Below are positions 59,163 through 63,906 of a stretch of 64,000 nucleotides of DNA, piece by piece. The notes under the pieces are model-generated. The model was given only the letters and a program-made list of their open reading frames with translations, was not told where the DNA came from and did no database searches. The first letter of the stretch is position 1, and each line of letters begins with the position of its first letter. The translations under genes were made by a program, and so were the position numbers. The DNA lies in contig DATLIY010000008.1 in assembly GCA_035539175.1 (NCBI GenBank), forward strand, positions 620,001 through 684,000, read 5' to 3'. Origin of the DNA: Acidisarcina sp. (GTDB lineage Bacteria > Acidobacteriota > Terriglobia > Terriglobales > Acidobacteriaceae).

Positions 59163-60269
59163 ATGTCGCAAGAACAGATTCCACAATTGAGCAGCTTTGA
59201 CGAAGCCGCGCTGGAACAGGCTTTCGGCGCGCTTGCCGCGCAGGCCGCCGAGTCAGCCCGGGCGCTGGCCTCGCCGGAAGCGGTTGAGCACTTTCGGCTG
59301 GAGTGGCTGGGGCGCAAACAGGGACGGCTGAAGCTGGTAAGCGAGGCGTGGCTGAAGTCCGCTCCCCCAGAGGCGAAGAAGCAGATTGGCCAGCGCTTTA
59401 ACAAGCTGAAGGAGCAGGTAGAAGAGCTGCTGGCGAGCGCCGGCAGCGCCGGGCCGGATGATGCCGCCCTGGCGCGCGAGGCCATCGACGTCACTCTGCC
59501 CGGGACCCGCAACTTGATCGGCGCGGAGCATCCGATCCTGCGCACGATGAACGAGATCGTCTCCGTTTTCCAGGGCATGGGCTACTCCGTCGGAGTGGGG
59601 CCTGAGGTCGAGACCGACTACTACAACTTCGAATCGCTGAATTTTCCGCCGAATCATCCGGCACGCGACACCCAGGACACGCTGGTGGTGGCGAACCAGG
59701 AGCGTCGCCCCCTGCGCGATCGGCTGCTGATGCGCACCCATACTTCGCCGGTGCAGATCCGCACGATGGAGCAGCAGCCGCCGCCGGTACGCATCGTGAT
59801 TCCGGGCAAGGTACATCGTAATGACGCGTCTGATGCCACGCACTCGCCGATCTTTCACCAGGTGGAGGGCTTGTGCGTCGGGGAAAACGTAACTTTCAGT
59901 GATCTAAAAGGAACGCTCGATCGCGCGATGAAGGCGTTCTTCGGCCTGGGAGTGAAGACGCGCTTCTTCCCGTCGTTCTTCCCCTTCACGGAGCCGAGCG
60001 CAGATGTGCAGATCAGCTGCATCTTCTGCGGCGGCAAGGGCTGCCGCAAGTGCAAGCACTCGGGATGGATCGAGTTGCTGGGCTGCGGCATGGTGGACCC
60101 CGCGGTGTTCGGCTTTGTGCAGCAGAAACAGCCCGGCTACGACCCGAAGAAGATCAGTGGATTTGCCTTCGGCATGGGCGTCGAGCGCATCGCGATGATG
60201 AAGTACGGCGTAAGCGATATCGGCCAGTTCTATTCGGGAGATATGAGGTTTTTGCGGCAATTTGCTTAG
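59163..60269 (+). CDS. pheS: Phenylalanyl-tRNA synthetase alpha subunit
   Basis: 368 residues, class II catalytic chain. N-terminal coiled coil, DVTLPGTRNLIGAEHPI, MGYSVGVGPEVETDYYNFESLN, motif 2 RTHTSPVQIRTME and GKVHRNDASDATHSPIFHQVEG, motif 3 GFAFGMGVERIAMMKYG. A CxxC..CxxC-like IFCGGKGCRKCKHSGWIELLG is present. Works with PheT to charge tRNA-Phe. pheT follows after a four-helix-bundle gene, so the usual tight pheS-pheT linkage is broken by 498 bases. Confidence 0.98.
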   Translation: MSQEQIPQLSSFDEAALEQAFGALAAQAAESARALASPEAVEHFRLEWLGRKQGRLKLVSEAWLKSAPPEAKKQIGQRFNKLKEQVEELLASAGSAGPDDAALAREAIDVTLPGTRNLIGAEHPILRTMNEIVSVFQGMGYSVGVGPEVETDYYNFESLNFPPNHPARDTQDTLVVANQERRPLRDRLLMRTHTSPVQIRTMEQQPPPVRIVIPGKVHRNDASDATHSPIFHQVEGLCVGENVTFSDLKGTLDRAMKAFFGLGVKTRFFPSFFPFTEPSADVQISCIFCGGKGCRKCKHSGWIELLGCGMVDPAVFGFVQQKQPGYDPKKISGFAFGMGVERIAMMKYGVSDIGQFYSGDMRFLRQFA

Positions 60270-60273
60270 GGGC

Positions 60274-60320
60274 AGCAGGTTAGCGAGTCAGCAAAGGGGC
60301 GGTCAGCGAGTCAGCAAAAG
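60274..60320. repeat. Left octamer array flanking the four-helix-bundle gene
   Basis: Degenerate 8-bp units agcaggtt, agcgagtc, agcaaagg, ggcggtc, agcgagtc, agcaaaag begin 4 bases after the pheS stop and end 9 bases before the next gene. Opposite sense to the right array at 60719-60766. The 14-mer agcgagtcagcaaa occurs twice. Confidence 0.85.
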
Positions 60321-60329
60321 TAGGCAGAA

Positions 60330-60710
60330 TTGGCAAGAACCAGGCATTTTCGGGACCTGATCGTGTGGCAGAAGGCCATGCAACTTGCCCGCGATGTTTA
60401 CTCGGCCACTCGTGCATTCCCCCGCGAAGAGATCTTTGGGCTGACCAGCCAGATGCGGCGTGCTGCAGTGTCTATTCCCAGCAACATCGCGGAAGGACAC
60501 GGCAGGCTCTCCGATCCAGGTTTGCGCACCTTTCTGGCGCAGGCTCGCGGGTCATTGTTTGAACTGGAGACACAGATTGATTTGGCTCGTGACGTCGGCT
60601 ATTTCGATGCACGGGCAGCGAAAGGATTATGCGAAGAGTGCGAGGAAGTAGCAAGACTGCTGAATGGACTGATCGCCGCAATTAACGGCAATACCCAGGG
60701 ACAAGGGTGA
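60330..60710 (+). CDS. Four-helix-bundle protein, S23/IVP family
   Basis: 126 residues starting with TTG: ARTRHFRDLIVWQKAMQLARDVYSATRAFPREEIFGLTSQMRRAAVSIPSNIAEGHGRLSDPGLRTFLAQARGSLFELETQIDLARDVGYFDARAAKGLCEECEEVARLLNGLIAAI. DLxVWQKAM, QMRRAAVSIPSNIAEG and ELETQI are the hallmarks of proteins first seen inside 23S rRNA intervening sequences and of Avd in diversity-generating retroelements. Function unknown; DNA or RNA binding is likely. Lies between pheS and pheT, bordered by the two octamer arrays. Confidence 0.9.
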   Translation: MARTRHFRDLIVWQKAMQLARDVYSATRAFPREEIFGLTSQMRRAAVSIPSNIAEGHGRLSDPGLRTFLAQARGSLFELETQIDLARDVGYFDARAAKGLCEECEEVARLLNGLIAAINGNTQGQG

Positions 60711-60718
60711 TTTCCGCC

Positions 60719-60766
60719 GCTGACTTGCTGTTCCGCTGGCTTGCTAACTCGCTGATTTGCTGAAGT
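60719..60766. repeat. Right octamer array flanking the four-helix-bundle gene
   Basis: Six contiguous 8-bp units gctgactt, gctgttcc, gctggctt, gctaactc, gctgattt, gctgaagt, beginning 8 bases after the gene's stop and ending one base before the pheT ATG, so it replaces the pheT ribosome site. Inverse complement in style to the left array. Confidence 0.9.
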
Positions 60767-60767
60767 C

Positions 60768-62876
60768 ATGAAGATTCTGACGGAGTGGTTGCGTGAATAT
60801 CTCCCGGGGATTCCCGTGGAGGACCATAAGCTTGCCGAGGACCTGACGCTGCGTGGCATCGCCGTGGATGGCGCCTTTGACCTTGGCCCCGGCAAGGGCT
60901 TGCTGCTCGAGATGGACATCACGACCAACCGCGTAGACGCGATGAACCACTACGGCATCGCACGCGAGGCGAGCGCGATCTATGGGCTGGCTCTGCCGCC
61001 GCTCGATGCTTCCGTACCCGTGTCCGGGTCCACATCCGGGTCCACGTCTGCAACCAAGCCCTACCCGGTGCGCATTGAAGCACCCGATCTCTGCGGCCGA
61101 TTCACGGCGCGCGTGCTGCGCAGCGTCACCATCAAACCCTCTACGGGGTTGCTGGCCCGGCGATTCGCCGCGCTCGAGCAGAAGCTGATTTCCAATGCGG
61201 TGGATGCGACCAACTACGCGTGGATTGCGATGGGGCAGCCCACCCACGTCTTCGATCTCGACAAGCTGGAGGGCGGCATCGTTGTCCGCCGCGCCCGCAA
61301 AGGCGAAAAGCTGCGCACCCTGGATGGCGTAGAGCGCACGCTGTATCCCGACGACCTGGTGGTGGCTGACGAGAAGAAGGCACTGGCGATTGCCGGCGTG
61401 ATGGGCGGCTGGGACTCGATGATTACTCCGGAGACGAAGAACGTGCTGGTGGAAGCGGCATGGTTCGATCCGGCAAGCATTCGCGGCACCTCGCGCCGTC
61501 ATGGCCTGCATACGGATGCCTCGCATCGCTTTGAACGCGGCGCCGACTTTAATGCTCCTCCGGTAGCTTCCGCGCTGGTGAGCCGCATGCTGCTGGCCGA
61601 TGGTGGCGAAGCAGAGGGCGAACTGGTGGACGTTGCCATTCCCGAGGCCGCGGCACGCACGGCAAACCGCTCCGCTGTCCGGCTGGAGCTGAGCGAGGTT
61701 CGCCGCATCCTGGGAACGACGGTTGACGCAGAGGGAATCACCACGTCGATTGTTGAGAACGTGCTGACGGCGCTGGGCTGCTCGCTGGTGCTGCATTCCG
61801 AGGGCGTCTACGACGTAACCCTGCCAAGCTGGCGGCTCGATCTGGAGCGCGAAATCGACCTGATCGAAGAGATCGCCCGCGTCTATGGGTACAACCGCTT
61901 TGCCAATACGCTGCCCGTGCTGGATTGCACCGTGGTGGAGCTGCCCTGGGCGCGGCAGCAGGATGCGGTGCGCTCGACCCTGCTGGCGCTGGGCTGGAAT
62001 GAGGCGTTGTCCAGCACCTTTGCATCTGCAACCGATGCGGTTGCATTTGCGCCGCAGCCCTCGTCCACCGTCGCCATGGGCAATCCTTTGAACGAAGAAG
62101 CCGGCATCCTGCGGCCTTCGCTGGTGCCGGGAATGCTGACCATGCTGGGCAGCAATCTGAACCGCAATGTGGAGGATGTGCGGCTCTTCGAAATGGGGAC
62201 CGTCTTCAGCGGAACAACAGACCGCGTGGACGAGCGGCCCGCGCTGTCCATAGGCGCAACCGGGCTGACCGCCGTCGAAGGACCGCATCAGCCGCCGCGG
62301 CCAGTGGACTTCTACGACGTAAAGGGCTCGATCGAAGAGCTGCTGAGCCGCTTTGCGATGCGCTCCCTCTACTTTGACAACTTTGCCGTGGAGAGCCACC
62401 TGATGCCGAAATGGCTGCATCCGGGGCGTTCTGCGCGGGTGGTCGTGGAGGGCTCGACGATCGGCTACTTCGGAGAGCTGCATCCAGCGGAAGCGCACAG
62501 CAGAAAGCTGAAGCAGAAGGTCTTCGTGGGCGAAATCTACCTCGACCGGCTGTATCGCCAGGCATTGCGCCAGCCGTCAGCGCGGGAGCTATCGCGCTTC
62601 CAGGCCGTGCGCCGCGATTTTTCGTTGATCTTTCCCGATACGGTTCTCTGGTCGCAGGTGGACGGCGCACTGCGCGAATTGCGCATCGAAGAATTGGTCA
62701 GCGTGGCGGCAAAGGAGGTCTTCCGCGACAGAAAGCAGGAGAAGCCGGAGTACTCTCTGCTGCTGGGCACCGTCTTTCAATCGCAGGAGCGCACCTTGCG
62801 CGAAGAGGAAGTGCAGGGTTACTCCGAGCAGATTCTGAAAGCGATGGAGCAACTTGGGGGACGTCTGCGCAGTTGA
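60768..62876 (+). CDS. pheT: Phenylalanyl-tRNA synthetase beta subunit, short form
   Basis: 702 residues. MKILTEWLREYLPGIPVEDHKLAEDLTLRGIAVDGAF runs straight into LEMDITTNRVDAMNHYGIAREASAIYG; the roughly 110-residue B2 (EMAP/OB-fold) domain usually in between is absent, explaining the length against about 790. B3/4 editing domain (VDATNYAWIAMGQPTHVFDLDKL, RRHGLHTDASHRFERGADF), B5 (LIEEIARVYGYNRF) and the FDX-ACB anticodon domain (FQAVRRDFSLIFPD) are present. No ribosome site is visible before the ATG. Confidence 0.96.
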   Translation: MKILTEWLREYLPGIPVEDHKLAEDLTLRGIAVDGAFDLGPGKGLLLEMDITTNRVDAMNHYGIAREASAIYGLALPPLDASVPVSGSTSGSTSATKPYPVRIEAPDLCGRFTARVLRSVTIKPSTGLLARRFAALEQKLISNAVDATNYAWIAMGQPTHVFDLDKLEGGIVVRRARKGEKLRTLDGVERTLYPDDLVVADEKKALAIAGVMGGWDSMITPETKNVLVEAAWFDPASIRGTSRRHGLHTDASHRFERGADFNAPPVASALVSRMLLADGGEAEGELVDVAIPEAAARTANRSAVRLELSEVRRILGTTVDAEGITTSIVENVLTALGCSLVLHSEGVYDVTLPSWRLDLEREIDLIEEIARVYGYNRFANTLPVLDCTVVELPWARQQDAVRSTLLALGWNEALSSTFASATDAVAFAPQPSSTVAMGNPLNEEAGILRPSLVPGMLTMLGSNLNRNVEDVRLFEMGTVFSGTTDRVDERPALSIGATGLTAVEGPHQPPRPVDFYDVKGSIEELLSRFAMRSLYFDNFAVESHLMPKWLHPGRSARVVVEGSTIGYFGELHPAEAHSRKLKQKVFVGEIYLDRLYRQALRQPSARELSRFQAVRRDFSLIFPDTVLWSQVDGALRELRIEELVSVAAKEVFRDRKQEKPEYSLLLGTVFQSQERTLREEEVQGYSEQILKAMEQLGGRLRS

Positions 62877-63775: not shown

Positions 63776-63906
63776 GGGTCCTTCACTTCGTTCAGGATGA
63801 CAATATCCGCGATCCTTCAACGCTTAGGTTTGTCATCCTGAGCAAGTCTGTTTGTCGCCCTCAGCAAAATCTTTTTGTCATCCTGAGCGAAGCGAAGGAC
63901 CTGCTT
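63776..63906. repeat. Cluster of dispersed repeats, inverted and direct copies
   Basis: An inverted copy gcgggtccttcacttcg-tcaggatgacaat (63776-63804), two decayed partial copies (63829-63871) and a full direct copy ttgtcatcctgagcgaagcgaaggacctg (63873-63904) of the repeat also at 9455. The outer pair could form a long stem. The rest to 64000 shows no gene. Confidence 0.75.

Follow-up and report, generated by a model that had tools for sequence, protein, structure and literature searches.

Opposing short tandem arrays around S23 genes: a cassette at a pheS-pheT junction and its probable place among foldback-type elements

The cassette at the pheS-pheT junction

The window, by which we mean the whole 64,000-nucleotide stretch of Acidisarcina sp. 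DNA analysed here, carries a small cassette between pheS and pheT (Table 1). The left array begins 4 bases past the TAG stop codon of pheS and reads, unit by unit, AGCAGGTT AGCGAGTC AGCAAAGG GGCGGTC AGCGAGTC AGCAAAAG; the right array stops one base short of the pheT ATG. A preliminary description of this DNA had reported a TTG-started S23 gene between opposing octamer arrays, and every coordinate that it gave is correct. When the right array is reverse-complemented, AG recurs at a period of 8 in 6/6 units, which none of 20000 random window stretches equalled; in strict phase the left array shows AG at this period in 3/6 units, as do 3% of random stretches. The inverted match of the two arms scores 12.5, a value reached by 0/3000 random pairs, and in single-strand folding the two arrays pair together in a 38 bp stem, in the DNA fold and the RNA fold alike. 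The cassette is not inside a 16S or 23S rRNA gene, and Rfam gave only sub-threshold matches over it (best E 1). The largest open reading frame between the arms is the S23 gene, which matches S23/Avd families only, and no RAYT Y1 transposase was found there. A search at E 0.001 detected only this one S23 gene in the genome. Separately, TRF reports 2.7 tandem copies of a 23-base unit (score 80) at 63828-63888, near the window end.

Table 1. Features of the cassette and its host genes (window coordinates)
Feature	Position	Strand	Basis
pheS, upstream host gene	59163..60269	+	PF01409, E 3.1e-93
Left arm, six octamers of AGCRARTC type, one shortened by a base	60274..60321	+	Sequence; pairing in folds
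S23 / 23S_rRNA_IVP four-helix-bundle gene, TTG start, 126 aa	60330..60710	+	PF05635, TIGR02436, AF2 model
Right arm, six GCTNNNNN octamers (left-arm unit reverse-complemented)	60719..60766	-	Sequence; AG at period 8
pheT, downstream host gene	60768..62876	+	PF03483, PF17759, PF03484, PF03147

The encoded protein is a member of the S23 / 23S_rRNA_IVP family with a four-helix-bundle fold. It matches PF05635 (E 1.3e-38; 131.9 bits vs a cut-off of 33.8) and TIGR02436 (122.2 bits vs 24), and Avd profiles fall below their cut-offs (23.2 bits vs 40; 26.6 vs 80). Its AF2 model (pLDDT 92.6) fits the Xanthomonas S23 structure 2GSC, which holds five chains, at 0.7-0.9 Å rmsd; Avd (4DWL) and the DGR complex 8UB7 are more distant matches, with TM 0.75-0.79 and E 0.015-0.1. 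We know of no catalytic site in S23. Purifying selection acts on S23: dN/dS is 0.05-0.19 in 11 of the 14 gene pairs tried, dS is saturated in the remaining three, and the pair that includes the window gene is near saturation (dS 3.1). S23 has been reported to be a homopentamer (Lin 2006, as cited in the accessible portions of PMC4990558 and PMC10053308), and the S23 of rRNA intervening sequences is described in the accessible text of PMC4990558 as having no known function.

We surveyed pheS in the window genome and its relatives, finding a match in 40 of 41 genomes and obtaining loci for 30. At four of these loci (L063, L064, L065 and L082) pheS and pheT overlap by 4 bases with nothing inserted; L065 belongs to the same genus as the window. 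Seven loci have a gap of 0-24 bases, two have an S23 gene at the junction (the window and L062), 16 have a gap of 43-502 bases in which no S23 was recognised, and one has no pheT nearby. By eye, some of these 16 loci contain arrays, among them an inverted heptamer hairpin (L079) and a right-hand remnant (L060). Relatives with an empty junction, which the preliminary description had suggested seeking, thus occur in the same genus (G019) and in three others. The preliminary description had suggested that the cassette may lower or couple pheT translation; since the empty junctions overlap, the ancestral pheT may have relied on translational coupling rather than on a separate ribosome site. Three more S23 genes at pheS-pheT came from outside the survey (L099, L134 and L297). 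The inserts of L099 and L134 keep RTGA on both sides, GTGA on the left and ATGA on the right, which could be a 4-base target duplication or could simply reflect that a stop codon and a start codon are required there. In two other genera (L067 and L068), a pheS-pheT gap of ~480-500 bp holds a different small open reading frame, the two being similar to each other by eye; the junction therefore accepts other genes too.

S23 genes in other genomes

For each gene, we compared the 260 bases upstream with the 260 bases downstream, took their best ungapped inverted match as the arm score, and counted the gene as framed when this score was at least 14. The family set comprised 91 loci (the window, 30 others and 60 more), all of them non-random, being among the best-scoring of 786 copies; the named set comprised the best 80 of 586 candidates, sorted into 14 groups by record title. 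Five loci are common to the two sets (L160, L162, L165, L183 and L203), such that the 171 loci are 166 distinct ones. Two smaller sets, from five many-copy genomes and from eight named genomes, repeat seven and eight loci of earlier sets, respectively. The preliminary description had proposed counting how often an S23 gene lies between opposite-facing arrays, and most of those examined do: 85/91 in the family set, 66/80 in the named set, 29/30 in the five many-copy genomes (30 of 59 listed matches examined) and 25/30 in the eight named genomes (30 of 40 listed matches examined). In addition, 6/6 S23 copies on cyanobacterial plasmids are framed (6 of 27 plasmid records examined). At a score of at least 12, the family set rises to 90/91. 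The window's own element is counted as a miss, with 12.5 against the cut of 14, probably because its unit is short. Merging the family and named sets, 146 of the 166 distinct loci pass.

The named set has at least one pass in every one of its 14 groups, including Acidobacteriota (24/25), Planctomycetes (8/10), Proteobacteria (9/10), Firmicutes (5/5), Bacteroidetes (9/16), Cyanobacteria (1/2) and Methanophagales archaea (1/2). Loci below the cut (6/91 in the family set, 14/80 in the named set and 5/30 in the eight-genome set) are above all from Bacteroidota. Framing was rare in the controls: 1/224 for mock genes, 2/132 for real genes of at least 100 aa away from S23, 0/26 for pheS, and, for swapped flank pairs, 4% of 600 in the family set and 21/800 in the named set. 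Same-direction matches between the arms reached the cut at 6/91 family and 11/80 named loci, and were stronger than the opposing match at L192, L201, L227 and the plasmid copy L354 (66 vs 25). We conclude that opposing short tandem arrays around S23 are a general architecture, of which the window is one case. Taken with the empty, overlapping junctions in G019 and three other genera, the framing of most S23 genes examined bears out the earlier proposal that repeats and gene together are a single self-contained insertion at this junction.

The left neighbour of the S23 gene lies on the opposite strand in 32/90 cases, with neighbour strands taken from the longest open frames. Of the 58 cases in the family set with a same-strand left neighbour, 42 have an arm that starts -12 to +15 bases from the stop codon of that neighbour. 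Genes of the PDDEXK_3 family (GxxExxY, PF13366) are framed alike at 29/30 loci of best-scoring matches (L229-L258); their arms have 8-9-base units such as ACACGGAG or ACGCCGAG, which by eye are more uniform than the S23 units. S23 and PDDEXK_3 co-occur across genomes (67/44/7/32 genomes, p 5e-6, a statistic without correction for kinship).

Repeat units, arm matching and turnover

Among 151 passing elements, the period is 7 in 130, 8 in nine, 15 in six and another value in six; counting distinct elements, it is 7 in 126/146. The window has period 8. Read on the strand running into S23, the heptamer has the consensus [A/G]-G-N-N-N-Y-Y (A80/G16 - G96 - T52 - N - N - Y - Y), with a unit logo of 3.87 bits as compared with at most 2.35 in scrambled columns, and this value changes by no more than 0.01 when repeated loci are left out. 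The almost fixed G is also the least variable position inside arrays (2.6%), AG occurs in the left arm at 1.89 times expectation, and the window octamer AGCRARTC retains AG. Arms have a median length of 4.4 units, about 31 bases. The unit varies between elements, and the two arms of one element match. The published heptamers GGGAATC, GGGGAYT, TAACTGA and GTGATTA fit RGNNNYY on one strand after rotation, as would ~1/3 of random heptamers by a hand estimate; the Coxiella heptamer GACAGAT does not fit even after rotation.

A tree of 92 S23 proteins shows related proteins with common units at different host junctions. All eight members of one group (support 94/79) carry AGTTCTC-type units, and 4/5 members of another (support 99/95) carry AGTACC units. 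Nine elements at the dprA-topA junction, assigned by eye, form one S23 group (support 95/62), with AGCTTCT-type arms in seven and both arms changed in the other two (L094 and L132). At the trpG and prfA junctions, also assigned by eye, S23 genes of different clades carry different units. The window S23 lies in a clade of ten (support 100/97) that holds 7/9 of the passing elements of the family set with a period other than 7 (periods 8, 11 and 14-15). Across different junctions and genomes, protein identity correlates with arm similarity (Mantel r 0.375, reached in 0/2000 permutations). Of 22 pairs with at least 70% S23 identity, 86% have arms that are alike, as do 15% of 310 pairs at 60-70%, 5% of 680 pairs at 55-60%, and at most 0.4% of pairs below 55%. 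Copies inside one genome differ in their units, with 5% of 20 pairs alike, and the same holds in the many-copy genomes. Because the unit tracks the S23 clade and copies in the same genome differ, the unit belongs to the element; together with the trpG and prfA junctions, this leads us to reject a unit set by the genome or by the host junction. Recognition of the octamers by the protein had been put forward as a possibility in the preliminary description. That the unit is inherited with the S23 clade, as expected of cognate pairs, speaks in part for that suggestion, but the constant part is only [A/G]G every 7 (sometimes 8) bases, and a linked unit could simply be passed on along with the protein, with no binding involved. 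At the trpG junctions of L126 and L137, an outer AGTGGCT left array adjoins the inner AGTTTCG arms of an S23 element, an arrangement that looks like a newer element placed inside an older one.

If the arms were maintained as an RNA stem, differences between them should favour G-U over A-C. In the 151 elements, 117 differences are of the G-U type and 116 of the A-C type (p 1.0), and in the 146 distinct elements the counts are 112 and 116. Looser scoring of the 151 elements gives 187 vs 172 and 334 vs 353. When counted per element, the G-U side is slightly ahead (49 vs 39, 62 vs 43 and 61 vs 54), the lowest p being 0.08, a lead far smaller than selection on an RNA stem should produce. With no excess of G-U, the arms match as DNA, as arm-to-arm copying or selection for a DNA hairpin would give, and these counts lead us to reject selection for an RNA stem as the main force.

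At other places in the genome, the window octamer forms opposing pairs that enclose no S23, two examples being C8:542693-542851 and C12:36419-36559. Hits to the octamer pattern exceed those to a reversed control in the window genome (17 vs 4), G064 (69 vs 4), G047 (55 vs 0) and G019, which lacks S23 (10 vs 1); nine of the 16 genomes searched (G002, G012, G013, G016, G017, G020, G025, G034 and G070) have 2-7 hits, near or little above their controls. The 36 stretches read in G047 and G064 comprise S23 elements, opposing pairs and arrays standing alone, and by eye some of the latter lie within reading frames. The G064 arrays that by eye lie inside open frames without S23 are L303, L311, L315 and L319; at ~428-466 of L319, the frame resembles, by eye, MnmG with a short repeat peptide inserted. 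We also followed a single junction through 24 genomes of one genus, 22 of them readable. The junction holds S23 in one orientation in 2 genomes and S23-homologous sequence reversed in 4; an 87-174 bp insert without S23 includes arms of the same type in 5, arms of other units are present in 3, and other palindromes or inserts are present in 8. Hence, the loop can lack S23 or carry it in reverse, and hairpins continue to arrive at this site. The preliminary description had listed frequent arrays lacking an S23 gene among the outcomes that would refute its cassette. This outcome was observed in part, such arrays being numerous, but by appearance they are gene-less derivatives rather than evidence against the cassette.

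Related systems and the origin of the cassette

The nearest known relative of the cassette is the 23S rRNA intervening sequence. According to the accessible text of PMC4990558, the Coxiella intervening sequence has an S23 open reading frame, inverted 28-bp ends and excision by RNase III, with three GACAGAT heptamers upstream of the frame (two in some strains); its authors repeat older ideas of mobility and name Leptospira too. With an S23 frame, inverted ends and, in Coxiella, heptamers already on record there, the view in the preliminary description that no described system has this architecture was too strong. Both the intervening sequence and the window cassette have complementary ends that form a stem, with the S23 frame in the loop. 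However, intervening sequences lie within rRNA helices and are excised as RNA, whereas the window element lies between protein genes and has octamer arms, and arm matching in its class shows no RNA bias. Drosophila foldback (FB) elements have inverted ends of short tandem repeats around a loop, the same end design as that of the window element, although their hosts and genes are unrelated and their units and ends are longer. Inverted terminal arrays of short repeats and gene-less copies also make the class resemble foldback or MITE-like DNA. RAYT (TnpA-REP) is a transposase, whereas no activity is known for the four-helix bundle S23, and the arms around S23 are tandem 7-8-mers that vary by element. 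REP/BIME sequences are otherwise similar in being dispersed intergenic inverted repeats, many of them gene-less and some beside a cognate gene (see also the accessible portions of PMC2817692, PMC3116915 and PMC8266576). Avd of diversity-generating retroelements has a fold in common with S23 (4DWL, 8UB7), but the window genome has no reverse transcriptase match.

Intergenic heptamers have been described before. In the accessible portions of the respective papers, heptamer repeats are reported from Xanthomonas (GGGAATC, with 70 opposing pairs in Xcc) and from Nostoc (PMC4692102), TAACTGA from between Beggiatoaceae genes (PMC4679880), and tandem heptamers as the most abundant intergenic repeats in many species among 7006 prokaryotic genomes, with "no clear clue" to their function (PMC6344855). 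As far as their accessible descriptions go, the cyanobacterial STRR, GGGAATC and TAACTGA share the 7-base period and the intergenic position with the arms around S23. The accessible portions of PMC4692102, PMC4679880 and PMC6344855 make no mention of S23 or a four-helix protein. We found no carrier of the Xanthomonas GGGAATC among the 274 Gammaproteobacteria genomes drawn. A search of largely open-access literature found no paper joining S23 genes outside rRNA with such arrays; in the literature searched, only PMC4990558, to the extent of its accessible text, brought together S23, an intervening sequence and heptameric repeats. Earlier work already covers the S23 family and the notion that S23 elements are selfish; what appears to be new is the arm architecture as a general feature, together with its cognate units and its connection to heptamer repeats.

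We think it probable that the cassette is a foldback-type mobile element of a widespread class, with S23 as its cognate end-binding protein. Elements of this class consist of one S23 gene in a loop between inverted arrays with a near-invariant purine-G at a fixed step, mostly 7 and here 8. A pentameric ring of S23 would bind the purine-G units while these are single-stranded, at the 5' arm of each strand and with about one unit per subunit, and host DNA-processing enzymes together with S23 would copy or move the folded element into intergenic gaps. Copying of one arm from the other would keep the arms matched while the unit drifts, and gene-less arrays would spread or persist as MITE- or REP-like derivatives. 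The published pentamer and arms of four to five units would fit one unit per subunit, so far a coincidence. The element encodes no recognisable nuclease or polymerase. Counting against the proposal, binding, excision and transposition have not been seen, nor has any certain recent jump, and the sole near-identical pair of copies in one genome (L337/L348, 94%) lies at contig ends.

Other origins of the cassette were considered. TRAP binds repeats at the 5' end of a message; a ring of S23 could likewise bind the 5'-terminal purine-G repeats of the message that encodes it and tune S23 and the downstream gene. The spaced AG on the sense strand of the left arm, the ring structure (five chains in 2GSC; homopentamer in the accessible text of PMC4990558) and the occurrence of Avd relatives in DGR ribonucleoprotein structures (8UB7) are consistent with such a regulator, but it would account neither for the matching of the right arm nor for gene-less arrays, the reversed S23 at one site or the change of host gene between elements, and we consider it quite unlikely. 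An insert acting at the RNA level, like the 23S rRNA intervening sequence, is simply unlikely. The arms would here be a stem cut by RNase III to free the flanking messages, with S23 as a passenger or RNA chaperone. The window arms pair well as RNA (z -3.8), some elements sit between genes of the same operon, and in Coxiella RNase III cuts a 28-bp stem whose loop contains the S23 frame (accessible text of PMC4990558), but G-U type mismatches between arms are no commoner than A-C ones, and about a third of left neighbours lie on the other strand.

Heptamer arrays might alternatively arise from replication slippage and hairpin copying, with S23 elements preferring to land there. The abundance of arrays without S23, the many kinds of hairpin at one site and the framing of PDDEXK_3 genes argue for a passive association of this kind; a passive target would, however, follow the genome or the site, whereas the unit tracks the S23 clade and differs within genomes, making this account improbable. 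Least probable, to our mind very much so, is a non-autonomous retroelement in which S23, like Avd, would use a reverse transcriptase supplied in trans. The fold match to Avd and the DGR complex and the weak Avd profile hits point in this direction, but the window genome (G000) has no PF00078 match, PF00078 is absent from 27/66 genomes with at least five S23 copies (some of these genomes being incomplete), and the presence of S23 is not associated with that of reverse transcriptase (115/100/37/48, p 0.13). We therefore reject a need for reverse transcriptase, which is lacking in the window genome and in those 27 S23-rich genomes.

The foldback reading can be extended, tentatively and with more doubt than belief on our part, to S23 proteins at large. 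They may be the cognate end-binding proteins of a pan-bacterial foldback DNA without its own nuclease or polymerase, with each subunit of the pentamer reading a single purine-G unit, 7 bases from the next; the class may be the source of the abundant intergenic heptamers, and rRNA intervening sequences may be members that landed in rRNA genes. The heptamer puzzle of the 7006-genome survey and the puzzle of S23 function meet in the framed S23 elements, and if these elements make or maintain heptamer arrays, both puzzles become testable. If true, this would be a kind of mobile DNA in which a period plus a two-base anchor, and no fixed sequence, marks the ends for recognition.

Two of the plasmid-borne S23 cassettes lie between cas6 and cas4, in Anabaena sp. 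90 pANA02 (L351) and Pseudanabaena galeata pPg_01 (L354); in L351, cas1d lies beyond cas4 in the cas6-S23-cas4 arrangement.
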